Source: a virus
Reading direction: 5' to 3' (one strand)
Virus record (IMG/VR): IMGVR_UViG_3300031369_000007
Span: 1 to 36,739 of that record
DNA length: 36,739 nucleotides
Shown: piece after piece, positions 4,623-21,233 of the stretch
How the letters are laid out: each line of letters begins with the position of its first letter
How positions within the stretch are numbered: the stretch's first letter is position 1
Notes under the pieces: generated by a model
Told to the model about the DNA's origin: nothing
The model's database searches: none
What the model saw: only the letters and a program-made list of their open reading frames with translations
Translations under genes and position numbers: made by a program

Positions 4623-4723
4623 TCCCGTAGGTCGGATTCGCACCGACGTCCTTGCCCGTGGGTGGATTGTCCCCAGCTGTAGGTCCACCGACGGAGCACG
4701 CTCTACTGCTGAGCTACTACGGG
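4623..4723 (-). tRNA. tRNA-like gene with a 36-nt anticodon loop
   Basis: Read on the minus strand, this 101-nt element forms a near-canonical cloverleaf. The acceptor stem is CCCGTAG with CTACGGG, followed by TA, D arm GCTC-AGCAGTA-GAGC, one G, anticodon stem TGCTC with GGGCA, variable region AGGAC, T arm GTCGG-TGCGAAT-CCGAC, and discriminator A; CCA is not encoded. The anticodon loop is 36 nt instead of 7 and has its own hairpin (GGTGGA with TCCACC). There is no T33 in the expected place, so no anticodon can be assigned. It could be an intron-bearing tRNA, a decoy, or a decayed tRNA. The D loop also lacks the usual GG pair. Confidence 0.55.
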
Positions 4724-4726
4724 CAC

Positions 4727-4869: not shown

Positions 4870-4947
4870 ATAGTCCCCACCCGCGTGGGGGTGGCCCGGT
4901 GTAGGTGAGCCGTAGCGAGTTGTCCCCGCCCACGCGGGGGTAGGAAA
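4870..4947 (+). repeat. Pair of type I-E CRISPR-repeat-like hairpins
   Basis: Two 29-nt units, 4870-4898 and 4919-4947, each have the form TNGTCCCC followed by a six-base hairpin stem (CCCCAC with GTGGGG, and CCCCGC with GCGGGG) and GGT. The second unit matches the mini-array repeat at 18087 in 22 of its first 24 bases. The gap between them is only 20 nt, shorter than the 32-33 nt of true I-E spacers, and the 3' ends diverge. They read on the + strand although the surrounding genes are on the minus strand. Whether they are solitary repeat units, a decayed array or unrelated hairpins is open. Confidence 0.5.
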
Positions 4948-4952
4948 CAGTT

Positions 4953-4980
4953 GAGCCCCCCACCATGAGGTGGGGGGCTC
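4953..4980 (-). terminator. Strong hairpin, probable leftward terminator
   Basis: A perfect 12-bp stem (GAGCCCCCCACC with GGTGGGGGGCTC) closed by the tetraloop ATGA on the + strand. On the minus strand it lies just downstream of the tRNA-like gene at 4994-5079 and is followed by AACTGTTTCC, a weak U-rich tail. It may instead stabilise the 3' end of the leftward transcript. Confidence 0.55.
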
Positions 4981-4993
4981 GCTGGCGTTGTTG

Positions 4994-5079
4994 TCCTGTC
5001 GGACGGATTCGAACCGTCGTCTGCCCACGGCGGACGTGAGTCCCAACGTGGGTCCTCTTGGCCACTGAGGTACGACAGG
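4994..5079 (-). tRNA. tRNA-like gene with a 19-nt anticodon loop
   Basis: The minus strand gives an 86-nt cloverleaf with perfect stems: acceptor CCTGTCG with CGACAGG, then TA, D arm CCTC-AGTGGCCAA-GAGG, A, anticodon stem CCCAC with GTGGG, variable CAGAC, T arm GACGG-TTCGAAT-CCGTC, and discriminator A; CCA is not encoded. The anticodon loop is 19 nt, with an inner GGAC-TCAC-GTCC hairpin. If about 12 nt were an intron after position 37, the loop would begin GTTGGG and read as tRNA-Pro(TGG). That is inference, since bacterial tRNAs rarely carry such short introns. An automatic caller may report a type II tRNA because of the 86-nt length. Confidence 0.65.
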
Positions 5080-14830: not shown

Positions 14831-14899
14831 ATGGTAGCGAACCATCGTAAAAACCGCGAATCGATCATCGTAGTGCCCGAGTCGGTGCTGTACGCATGA
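14831..14899 (+). CDS. Possible 22-residue leader peptide
   Basis: MVANHRKNRESIIVVPESVL then YA. The stop overlaps the ATG of the replication initiator (ATGA), as in translational coupling. AAAGAG lies about 12 bases upstream. It may control initiator translation. Too short to be certain. Confidence 0.35.
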   Translation: MVANHRKNRESIIVVPESVLYA

Positions 14900-15903
14900 G
14901 CGTCGAGGCAATGGCCATCGTCCTGCACCACTCACGGTCCAGGGGCACCGACAAGGTCGTCCTCCTCGGGATCGCCAACCACGACGGCGACGGCGGGGCC
15001 TGGCCCACGCTCGCGACACTGGCACGGTACGCGAACGTCGACATCCGGAATGTTCGGGCAGCATTACGTCGCCTGGAGTCTGCCGGGGAGATCCGGACCC
15101 ATCTCAACGACGGCGGGACACGGCGTACCCCTGGACACGAACGCCCGAACCGGTACGAGATCACGATCTGTTGCCCGGTCGAGTGCGATCGGACATCGAA
15201 CCATCGGATGCCAGGGGACTACGGATACTCCTGCCGACAGGGGGGGATGCCAGCATCCCCACCCCCCCGGATGCCAGCATCCCCACCCCCCCGGATGCCA
15301 GCATCCCCCGAACCATCCCCCGAACCATCAGATGAACCGTCCCTCCCCCCCTCCCCCCAGCCCAACAGCACCACCGCCGACATGACGGGAACACCAGGAG
15401 GGAGAGGAAACTCCCAGAAGACCTCCTACGGGGAGCACAGCATCAGCGCAGGCCACACCGACGACGGAAAACCAGCCGCCGGTCAACCAGACCTCCTAGC
15501 GGGGAGGGAGGACGACTCCCTGGACAAGGCCCTCCGTGCCGTGGTCGAGGGCGTGGGGAGGCCTGACCTCTCCCCTGCTCTCCTGGCCTCCTCGCCGCTA
15601 CGTGCGGCCGTGACGGCACTCGTCCGTGCCGGTGTGACGTCCAGGGCGCTGCGCGGGTCCTGTGAGGCGCACCGGTGGGCTGGTGCTGGGGTGGGGGCGG
15701 TGGTCCGGTACGTGCAGGGCCTGCGGGCCGGGGACCTCGTGGTGCGGGCACCGGTGGGGCCGCCGGAGTGTCCGGAGCATCCGGGGCAGCCGGCGGGTCG
15801 GTGTCGGGAGTGTGAGCGGGCGAGTGTGCCGCGGGCGTTGGTGGCTGGTCTGGCGGAGGGGCTCCGGGCGGCGGTGAGAACCTCCCACACCGTAAACGTA
15901 TGA
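14896..15903 (+). CDS. Winged-helix replication initiator
   Basis: 335 residues. Residues 1-95 form a winged-helix of the HTH_36 type: VVLLGIANHDGDGG, WPTLATLARYANVDIRNVRA, LRRLESAGEIRTH, then RPNRYEI, the wording seen in phage and plasmid replication initiators. Residues about 115-150 are a Pro/Ser linker with three PRMPASP units encoded by 24-bp iterons. The C-terminal half is helical and ends with a Cys/His cluster, PPECPEHPGQPAGRCREC, that may bind zinc. With the iterons inside the gene, this looks like a lambda-O-type arrangement in which the initiator binds its own coding region. No helicase gene is seen, so a host helicase would be recruited. Confidence 0.65.
   Translation: MSVEAMAIVLHHSRSRGTDKVVLLGIANHDGDGGAWPTLATLARYANVDIRNVRAALRRLESAGEIRTHLNDGGTRRTPGHERPNRYEITICCPVECDRTSNHRMPGDYGYSCRQGGMPASPPPRMPASPPPRMPASPEPSPEPSDEPSLPPSPQPNSTTADMTGTPGGRGNSQKTSYGEHSISAGHTDDGKPAAGQPDLLAGREDDSLDKALRAVVEGVGRPDLSPALLASSPLRAAVTALVRAGVTSRALRGSCEAHRWAGAGVGAVVRYVQGLRAGDLVVRAPVGPPECPEHPGQPAGRCRECERASVPRALVAGLAEGLRAAVRTSHTVNV
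15245..15328. repeat. Iterons inside the initiator gene, candidate origin
   Basis: Three copies of the interrupted palindrome GGATGC-CA-GCATCC, at 15245-15258, 15269-15282 and 15293-15306, with an exact 24-bp period. They are followed by two copies of a 12-bp unit containing CCCCCGAACCAT (15305-15328). A half copy lies near 15207. Period and symmetry suit initiator binding on one DNA face. Confidence 0.6.
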
Positions 15904-17598: not shown

Positions 17599-17952
17599 AT
17601 GGCCCTCTTCCGCAACCTCACCCCCCACGAAGTCAACCTGGTCCAGGGCGACACCCGGACCACCTACCCCGTGGACGGGCCAGCACCCCGCGTCACCACG
17701 ATCGAAGAAGCAGACGCTCCCATCCACGACGACGTCAACAGCATCGACATCGACGTCATCGTCAGTACCCTCAGCGACAAAATTACGGACCTGCCGGACC
17801 CGCAGCATGGTGTCGTCCTGATCGTTTCCAGGATGACCGCAGAGGCCGCTCTCACGCGGACGGATCTGGTCTACCCCGAGGGCATCGTCCGGGGACCGGA
17901 CGGCGTTCCCATCGGATGCAAGAAGTTCGGCAGGGTCCGGCCCACCGGCTGA
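17599..17952 (+). CDS. Conserved phage protein of the LTPHxVxL family
   Basis: 117 residues, AAGGAG 9 bases before the ATG. The opening LFRNLTPHEVNLV and the end DLVYPEGIVRGPDGVPIGCKKF match a family found in many actinophages and other phages, with LTPH near the start, VVS-x-L/M-x-A-E in the middle and an I-G-C-x-x-F end. No function has been established for it to my knowledge. Confidence 0.7.
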   Translation: MALFRNLTPHEVNLVQGDTRTTYPVDGPAPRVTTIEEADAPIHDDVNSIDIDVIVSTLSDKITDLPDPQHGVVLIVSRMTAEAALTRTDLVYPEGIVRGPDGVPIGCKKFGRVRPTG

Positions 17953-17957
17953 TCGCG

Positions 17958-18068
17958 ATGACGATCTACCTCCTGGCCTACCTGGACGGTGAAGAACTCG
18001 GTCTTCTCGGAACCGTCGAGGTCGATACCAGCACAGAAGATGAGCCCGACTGCACCGAGAATGACTGA
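17958..18068 (+). CDS. Small acidic protein, 36 aa
   Basis: MTIYLLAYLDGEELGLLGTV then an acidic tail ending CTEND. The start is 5 bases after the previous stop and no good ribosome site is seen, so translation would rely on coupling. It ends 18 bases before the mini-CRISPR. Moderate support only. Confidence 0.4.
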   Translation: MTIYLLAYLDGEELGLLGTVEVDTSTEDEPDCTEND

Positions 18069-18086
18069 ATGGGTAGTCTGGGTAGT

Positions 18087-18177
18087 GTTGTCCCCGCCCG
18101 CGCGGGGGTGATCCGTGGAGAGCTCTGATCGAGGCACGGACGTACAAGGTGTTCCCCGCGTAAGCGGGGGAGGTGGA
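18087..18177 (+). CRISPR. Two-repeat, one-spacer type I-E-like mini-array
   Basis: Repeat 1 (18087-18115, 29 nt) has the core TTGTCCCCGCCCGCGCGGGG and ends GTGATCCG. Repeat 2 (18149-18177, 29 nt) has the core GTGTTCCCCGCGTAAGCGGG with a diverged 3' end, as last repeats often do. Between them is a 33-nt spacer beginning TGGAGAGCTCTGATCG. Repeat length, 62-nt period, six-base stem with 4-nt loop, and terminal GTGATCCG fit type I-E repeats of actinomycetes. No cas gene is present. It lies downstream of the rightward early genes and is closed by a terminator at 18179, so it is probably transcribed with them. Confidence 0.7.
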
Positions 18178-18178
18178 G

Positions 18179-18209
18179 GGGCCCCGGTGAGAATCGGGGC
18201 CCTTTCTGT
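18179..18209 (+). terminator. Rho-independent terminator after the mini-array
   Basis: GGGCCCCG and CGGGGCCC close the loop GTGAGAAT and are followed by TTTCTGT. It ends the transcript that carries the mini-array. Confidence 0.75.
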
Positions 18210-18221
18210 GTAGTGGTGGAC

Positions 18222-18250
18222 TTGCCATGATGCCGCACGTGAGGCATAAT
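18222..18250 (+). promoter_or_regulatory. Sigma-70-type promoter
   Basis: TTGCCA at 18222-18227, a 17-base spacer, and CATAAT at 18245-18250. It follows a terminator directly and precedes the gene at 18282, so it starts a new transcription unit. It is the best consensus-like promoter noticed in the window. Confidence 0.6.
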
Positions 18251-18281: not shown

Positions 18282-18602
18282 ATGGGTGCTCGAACCGTGT
18301 ACGGATACTTCAGCGACTTTGAGTTCAGCGCCAACACCCCCGCCGACGTCGTCGCATCTTACATCAACGGCGCTGGCACCGACTGGTGCGAGCGCGCTGT
18401 CGCGAACGGAGCCTTCCAGAACATGGTGGACGACTACACCGCCGAGATCCAGGCCGCCCTTCCCGAGGGCGTCCTCCTCTCGGGCAGCGAGCTGACAGGC
18501 CCATACAGCTCGTGCAACGACCCGGACCTGAAGGAAAAGATCATCATCGCCATCACCGAGGTGGACCTCGAAGAGATCGTGAAACGTCACGATTTCGAGT
18601 AA
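18282..18602 (+). CDS. Hypothetical protein, 106 aa
   Basis: ATG 18282 chosen because ACGGAGGA lies 8 bases upstream; a start at 18252 lies at the likely transcription start. Mixed alpha/beta, acidic (DLKEKIIIAITEVDLEEIVK near the end). No family recognised. Confidence 0.65.
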   Translation: MGARTVYGYFSDFEFSANTPADVVASYINGAGTDWCERAVANGAFQNMVDDYTAEIQAALPEGVLLSGSELTGPYSSCNDPDLKEKIIIAITEVDLEEIVKRHDFE

Positions 18603-20301: not shown

Positions 20302-20326
20302 ATGTGTTACCATGGGAGCACAGGAA

Positions 20327-20354
20327 AGGGCCGGGGCGGCAAGACCCCGGCCCT
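20327..20354 (+). promoter_or_regulatory. Leader hairpin of the ERF gene
   Basis: AGGGCCGGGG and CCCCGGCCCT close the loop CGGCAAGA. It lies between promoter motif copy 4 and the start codon, and overlaps the alternative upstream start at 20304, which it argues against. It may protect or attenuate the mRNA. Confidence 0.5.
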
Positions 20355-20387
20355 CCACCACCTGAAGACCACATGAGTGGAGACCCA

Positions 20388-21233
20388 GTGTCCGACACCA
20401 CCACCGGAAACGCAACACACCCCAATCTCGTGATGGCTCTCGCCGCGGTCCAGGGCGAAATGCCCACGGTCCAAAAAGCCGAGACCGCCAACGTCCGGAT
20501 GAAGACCGGGGGAACGTACCGATACCGGTACGCCAGCCTTGCGGACATTCACGCGGCAGTGCTGCCCGTCCTCGCTCGCCATGGCTTGGCCTGGATCACC
20601 ATGCCGACCCTCCGCCCCGACGGCCACGGCTACGTCCTGGTGTGTGAGCTAGCCCACGCATCCGGGGAGTCTCGCACTTGCGAGATGCCACTACCTGTGT
20701 CGGCCGGAGCCCAGGAGCTCGGCTCCGCCATCACGTACATGCGCCGGTACGCCATCTGCGCCGTCTGCGGGATCGCGACGGACGAGGACGACGACGGTGC
20801 GGCTGCCCCCGCTGCTGTCGCCGCCCCCCAGCAGCAGCGTCCGGCCCCCCAGGACCACGCCCCCGCCGCCCGAACCCGCCGCCAGCCCACCAAAAAGCCG
20901 ACGGCGGAAGCACAGCCCCAGGACGATGACATTGTCAAGATCCTGGACACAGCTCTGAAGACGACGGACCGAGACTGGCACGTGGGAACGTGGAAGACCG
21001 CGCCCAGGTCAGCTCCGCTGCCCCTGTCGCAGATGACAAGTCACCACCGGCGATGCCTCAGGGCCGCCGGACTCGACATGACCAAGCGCGACCTTACGGT
21101 CGAGGACGCCCTCGAAGCGATCGGATTTGCGGTGAAGTCCACGGGCGAGACCGTGACCGCGCTCGTGGCCCCCGACGGGGCCCCCGACCCCGTTGTCGAG
21201 GAGGTCGTTTCCCTACTCGCCGAAGGCCAATAG
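20388..21233 (+). CDS. ERF-family single-strand annealing protein
   Basis: 281 residues from GTG 20388, which has GGAG 5 bases upstream; ATG 20373 is an alternative. The core RYRYASLADIHAAVLPVLAR, then HGL-x-W, SGAQELG-like SAGAQELGSAITYMRRYAI, and DDDG match the ERF superfamily (phage P22 Erf): Y-A-x-L-x-x-I then G-S-x-x-T-Y-x-R-R-Y. It anneals single-stranded DNA in recombination or circularisation of the genome. Residues about 140-180 are a Gln/Pro/Ala linker, followed by a basic segment and a helical C-terminus. Confidence 0.85.
   Translation: MSDTTTGNATHPNLVMALAAVQGEMPTVQKAETANVRMKTGGTYRYRYASLADIHAAVLPVLARHGLAWITMPTLRPDGHGYVLVCELAHASGESRTCEMPLPVSAGAQELGSAITYMRRYAICAVCGIATDEDDDGAAAPAAVAAPQQQRPAPQDHAPAARTRRQPTKKPTAEAQPQDDDIVKILDTALKTTDRDWHVGTWKTAPRSAPLPLSQMTSHHRRCLRAAGLDMTKRDLTVEDALEAIGFAVKSTGETVTALVAPDGAPDPVVEEVVSLLAEGQ

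Follow-up and report, generated by a model that had tools for sequence, protein, structure and literature searches.

The use of CRISPR by one virus against another has been documented mainly for archaeal viruses, and phage mini-arrays were thought not to adapt. The SPV1 and SPV2 portogloboviruses of Sulfolobales carry Cas-less mini-arrays of 1-2 spacers that are directed against other viruses (PMC6858448); these viruses are archaeal and non-lytic, have recognizable host-like leaders and show reciprocal targeting of sister viruses (PMC6858448). The phage mini-arrays known by then were without leaders and may gain spacers by recombination (PMC6858448), and in a 2024 review, mini-arrays directed at related viruses are already counted as established (PMC11656645). 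A further kind of virus-borne repeat is the Racr, an RNA made of a solitary CRISPR repeat that phages encode unaccompanied by cas genes and of which type I-E cases have been described (PMC10651486). Virus mini-arrays being already known, what is new at the locus reported here is the turnover of spacers at the leader end of an array in a tailed phage.

We analysed a stretch of viral DNA, the window, that makes up a 36,739-base IMG/VR record in full; its direct terminal repeat of 127 bp marks it as a complete genome. Neither cas genes nor an integrase were found among the ~36 window proteins scanned (PHROGs and/or Pfam, with the smallest ORFs partly covered). The array, at 18087-18177, lies at the 3′ end of a run of + strand genes, in the interval between the genes for replication initiation (14896-15903) and Erf annealing (20304-21233); the 'early operon' setting given to it in the first-pass annotation of this DNA is plausible. 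Two relatives were compared: G001 (L005; IMGVR_UViG_3300031277_000014) is collinear with the window at 90-97% identity across most common stretches, and in the other, G002, the longest common stretch is 83% identical to the window. The window and G001 are both metagenomic assemblies.

On the + strand, a leader-like flank (18061-18086) is followed by repeat R1, GTTGTCCCCGCCCGCGCGGGGGTGATCC + G (18087-18115), whose last base is the PAM-derived position, and then by the spacer TGGAGAGCTCTGATCGAGGCACGGACGTACAAG (18116-18148), which is 33 nt long, or 34 nt when the PAM-derived G at 18115 is included. A diverged terminal repeat R2, GTGTTCCCCGCGTAAGCGGGGGAGGTGGA (18149-18177), closes the array, and a predicted intrinsic terminator of the array transcript (18177-18204; hairpin AGGGGCCCCG-GTGAGAAT-CGGGGCCCTT-TCTGT) comes directly after. 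Both repeats contain perfect CCCCGC-NNNN-GCGGGG stems, at 18092-18107 (loop CCGC) and 18154-18169 (loop GTAA), with a period of 62. The layout that the first-pass annotation had described, from the coordinates, 29-nt units, stems and 4-nt loops to the period of 62, the 33-nt spacer and the terminator, holds in every part. Further along the same strand, a sigma-70-like promoter motif for the next gene, TTGCCA-17-CATAAT, lies at 18222-18250.

Taken alone, the window makes a weak case for CRISPR, because the stem pattern (≤2 mismatches) occurs in 13 copies against 13.9 expected from shuffles, R1 and R2 differ at 11 of 29 positions, and the folding energy of the array region is unremarkable (z -1.09), the best fold pairing one repeat with the other. 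No Rfam family was found at its gathering score; a BjrC68-like match over the repeat and terminator reached 20.4 bits, below the cut-off of 39.

The decisive evidence comes from the orthologous locus. When IMG/VR was scanned for the pattern of the first repeat, the matches were a single further phage, G001, with two copies, and a Pseudonocardia prophage. The orthologous locus of G001 comprises four repeats and has spacers of 33 to 34 nt, which makes it certain that the array is real. In G001, the 26-nt flank is followed by a repeat, spacer 1 (CGTCACCGAGGAGGTCTCCCGCGTCGTCTTGGC), a repeat, spacer 2 (GGAGATGGAGCAGTTCACCGCTGCCGTCACCGC) and repeat 3, after which come the window's spacer, unchanged and in the leader-distal position, the diverged last repeat, the same as R2, and a terminator that differs by one base. 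The flank is kept in both phages, is identical as far as R1 and bears a weak likeness to the ends of host I-E leaders; window positions 18061-18114 are 100% identical to G001 2319-2372. Repeats 1 and 2 of G001 both have the sequence of R1 (28 nt), and repeat 3 has one substitution (GTAATCC), as is expected of leader-end duplication. With two repeats in the window and four in G001, the terminal unit is retained and the difference lies at the leader side. A distal end that is kept while leader-side units vary is the polarity of CRISPR arrays. The window element is a real, dynamic mini-CRISPR, and its array would be the one-spacer state of a G001-type array, either ancestral or derived by deletion.

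The array occupies the same slot in these two genomes. A 117-aa gene upstream (17599-17952, + strand; phrog_30542, function unannotated), 94% identical in G001 and 69% in G002, is by its conservation the left border of an accessory slot, and a conserved 106-aa gene downstream (18282-18602, + strand), 92% identical in G001, forms the right border. Between the homologues of these two genes, G002 has an HTH-like ORF and a 120-aa ORF in place of the array, and its array-less slot ends at the same terminator as in the window. The array is therefore cargo of an accessory slot directly before the operon terminator. That the repeats are generic terminator hairpins was considered and rejected, since G002 keeps the terminator without the repeats and the spacers of the sister array have protospacers.

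Relatives of R1 are found beside host CRISPR machinery. In Streptomyces sp. NBC_00464, a 36-repeat array with repeats 4/28 mismatches from R1 adjoins a complete I-E operon (cas3, casA, casB, cas7e, cas5e, cas6e, cas1e and cas2e), and S. albus presents a similar case, with R1-like repeats by a complete I-E cas operon. The likeness to type I-E that the first-pass annotation had read from the layout therefore extends, on comparison, beyond the GC stem, and its view of the locus as an actinophage mini-array of type I-E that comes without cas genes is borne out by these I-E repeats, by the proteins scanned, among which there is no cas gene, and by the G001 orthologue. Host arrays have repeats 3-5 mismatches from R1, the nearest one found being that of a MAG, with 14 repeats, 3 mismatches from R1. 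The exact repeat is absent as a host array from the 395 actinomycete genomes sampled, and no Cas6e was detected in the two genomes whose repeats come closest. In G001 the spacers begin, after 28 nt of repeat, with G or C, and so do most of those in the array of the MAG, matching the PAM-derived base.

The two leader-side spacers of G001 both have targets. Spacer 2, in a degenerate, in-frame scan of IMG/VR, matched two contigs from other viruses, L174 and L175, each at 33/33 positions, preceded by GAA with the spacer's first G and within a portal-protease-capsid fusion gene. Spacer 1, whose target came from a scan of all fetched DNA, matches 29/33 positions in the major tail gene of L175; the four mismatches fall at positions 20, 25, 26 and 29 and leave the seed intact. 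An AA PAM is adjacent to both protospacers, directly before them. By comparison, the best L175 match of any of 500 random 33-mers from the window had at least 9 mismatches; for 13 natural spacers, taken from an unrelated actinomycete array, the count was 10-14 against the window, G001, G002 and L175. The two G001 spacers are not self-targeting, as their best matches in the window and in G001 are at 11-12 mismatches. L175 (IMGVR_UViG_3300025563_000002) is a 14.5-kb contig from a tiny siphovirus of the Arthrobacter phage Decurro/Mariposa kind. It has a fused portal-protease-capsid gene and, at one contig end, a 27-bp tandem repeat. L175 and the window both encode a phrog_5313 tail protein and a replication-initiation protein, the latter 82% identical at the DNA level across 115 nt, which makes a common host plausible.

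With a probability of roughly 75%, and on comparisons of sequence, we interpret the locus as a genuine Cas-less type I-E mini-CRISPR of a tailed actinophage, used via host Cas6e and Cascade against co-infecting phages. The array would be co-transcribed by read-through from upstream genes, its RNA would be cleaved by host Cas6e, the resulting crRNA would be taken up by host Cascade, and Cas3 would destroy a rival phage on its entry into that cell, amounting to superinfection exclusion. Host Cas1-Cas2 would probably add new spacers at the leader end during mixed infection; as an alternative source of the G001 spacers, recombination with a host array could be invoked. Superinfection exclusion had been put forward in the first-pass annotation, and it is supported by the orthologous G001 array, which carries two spacers against another phage.

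Recombination is also at the centre of a rival account, in which the array is a passive relic: the phage would have acquired it, repeats and spacers alike, from a host I-E array and would neither use nor renew it. Earlier phage mini-arrays, without leaders and with spacer gain thought to occur via recombination (PMC6858448), offer a precedent; the flank here is weakly leader-like, and the slot in G002 has two other ORFs in place of the array. A relic would, however, sit poorly with a terminal unit and terminator that are kept while leader-side units differ, with an array in the same slot of two genomes, and with two extra G001 spacers that match one and the same phage, and we regard this account as unlikely. 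In another, the window spacer is aimed at the host or a host defence element. Phage ICP1 reportedly carries a spacer against its host or against a defence element in the host, and the window spacer is without a phage match, is identical in both phages and is always the oldest unit. Searches for a protospacer of 18116-18148 found none in phage or plasmid records at BLASTN sensitivity, none by an in-frame degenerate scan of IMG/VR, none within 9 mismatches across all fetched loci and none among 297 actinomycete genomes at up to 3 mismatches; the spacer search that the first-pass annotation had suggested among phages, plasmids and actinomycetes thus returned zero matches at these sensitivities. 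The IMG/VR scans presuppose a single coding frame and exact peptides, so further targets could be missed; for a reason of this kind, the 29/33 target of spacer 1 escaped the scan made with that spacer. The empty results from the 297 genomes (≤3 mismatches) and the plasmid records (BLASTN sensitivity) count against a host target, as do the two sister spacers with known targets, both of which match a phage, and we judge such targeting improbable.

Still less probability attaches, in our estimate, to a Racr-like decoy, whose repeats would draw Cas6e/Cas7 into dead complexes and so shield the phage from host CRISPR. The last repeat is indeed diverged and a single spacer is left in the window, and two I-E Racr candidates inhibited an I-E system of P. 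aeruginosa (PMC10651486). But the handle of the first repeat is of the standard I-E form, the spacer after it has the normal length of 33 nt, the spacers of the sister array have protospacers, and Racrs are solitary repeats (PMC10651486), whereas the repeats of the window and G001 are paired around spacers. The first-pass annotation had offered an RNA that poisons Cascade as its second possibility for 18087-18177; given normal 33-nt spacers, a 5′ handle that is kept and spacer turnover, that possibility goes unsupported. Decoy action fits better, and is possible, for a short-spacer element at 4870-4947. For 18087-18177, the mini-CRISPR directed against co-infecting phages remains our preferred reading.

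The element at 4870-4947 was missed by the first-pass annotation. On the + strand, repeat 1, ATAGTCCCCACCCGCGTGGGGGTGGCCCG (4870-4898), is followed by a 20-nt spacer, GTGTAGGTGAGCCGTAGCGA (4899-4918), which is conserved in G001, and by repeat 2, GTTGTCCCCGCCCACGCGGGGGTAGGAAA (4919-4947), whose handle is degenerate; the period is 49. The repeats, with 6 and 7 mismatches to R1, are present in the window and in G001, and the pair is located after the last tail gene. A strong hairpin, GAGCCCCCCACC-ATGA-GGTGGGGGGCTC (4953-4980, + strand), stands directly after it and, having no T-run, is not a canonical terminator. Nearby, at 4630-4725 on the - strand, there is a tRNA-like sequence, uncalled by ARAGORN, and a tRNA-Thr gene lies at 4993-5079.

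Pairs of this kind recur. An oriented IMG/VR scan for I-E hairpins in pairs, with periods from 43 to 60, returned 67 matches spread over 49 stretches, 34 of them at period 49-50 and ≤8 at every other period; the matches at periods 48 and 55 belong mostly to a palindromic GTCATCCCCGCG family. The oriented scan of 395 actinomycete genomes gave ~43 matches, nearly all at period 58-60 within ordinary arrays. Period 49 occurred in three of the 395: G003, which is a Pseudonocardia contig classed as viral by IMG/VR, G024, where the pair lies between endolysin and integrase genes, and G275, where it adjoins a head-tail adaptor gene. As an ordinary host array, the short class (period 49-50) was absent from these 395 sampled genomes. 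Actinophages and prophages with period 49-50 pairs include L004, L019, L044, L059, L073, L075, L080, L081, L087, L104, L110 and L129, and further loci are L133, L138, L139, L142, L144-L147 and L152-L156, often with a terminator following. A terminator-like hairpin lies ≤75 nt away from 17 of 26 terminal short-class pairs, compared with 22 of 400 random stretches. Separately, an IMG/VR census (L015-L093 and on) recorded at least 120 viral stretches with paired CCCCGC/GCGGGG hairpins at CRISPR-like distance; many two-repeat arrays of 61-nt period, among the matches listed, close with a diverged repeat.

As a group, the short class folds its handle plus spacer more strongly than shuffled sequence does (mean z -0.75 versus -0.07; Mann-Whitney p ~4e-4), which would suit a decoy; the window's own short pair has z = +0.63, so a conserved central hairpin is not claimed for it. 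Six loci (L073, L080, L104, L139, L147 and L155) have in common a spacer motif, AG-CTYAGGGGCG-like, able to pair with the 5′ handle GGCCC. Regulation by self-targeting was rejected for the short class, since seed matches to its own nearby DNA are not enriched. The fixed 49-50-nt period implies a spacer of 20-21 nt, 12 nt under normal, and 12 nt equals two 6-nt Cas7 steps of Cascade. In E. coli, I-E complexes shorter by 6 or 12 nt still supported slow degradation (PMC7296934), and in an I-B system spacers of 21-24 nt led to repression of transcription and no interference (PMC10989794). We put at somewhat below even odds the proposal that actinophages carry, in addition to ordinary mini-arrays, a distinct class of short-spacer I-E crRNA-like elements, built of two or more diverged repeats, that load host Cascade as truncated complexes and serve as anti-CRISPR decoys or transcriptional repressors, not in immunity; the elements are potentially a new class.

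Set beside known systems, the short pair resembles CreA/CreTA and CreR, in which two diverged repeats surround one spacer-like sequence (PMC9458426, PMC12737573); those elements, however, are cellular and linked to cas loci or toxin RNA, and no cas gene was found near 4870-4947. Considered as CreTA-type guides, which pair with the promoter of a toxin RNA next to them, the window spacers showed no near match in the window or in G001. Recurring elsewhere and present in the same genome as a mini-array, the short-spacer element could be a new RNA class that acts on host Cascade.

The array at 18087-18177, unlike a Racr, has paired repeats and full-length spacers, with known protospacers in the sister phage. 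In having the same genomic site with different spacers in close relatives, and in the host Cas proteins that are thought to be exploited, it is like SPV1 and SPV2 (PMC6858448), but its carrier is a tailed actinophage, its type is I-E and the targets, those of the G001 spacers, lie in an unrelated tiny siphovirus. Near-identical tailed phages that differ by leader-end spacers matching the capsid and tail genes of a rival phage make it a directly testable question in actinobacteria whether phages update their own CRISPR memory via host machinery in coinfection. The phage and prophage mini-arrays of earlier surveys likewise have few spacers, host-type repeats and spacers directed at other phages, and they are reported to be without leaders or evidence of adaptation (PMC11656645, PMC6858448). 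Here, unlike in those surveyed arrays, two near-identical phages differ mainly by their leader-end units, and the older unit is kept.
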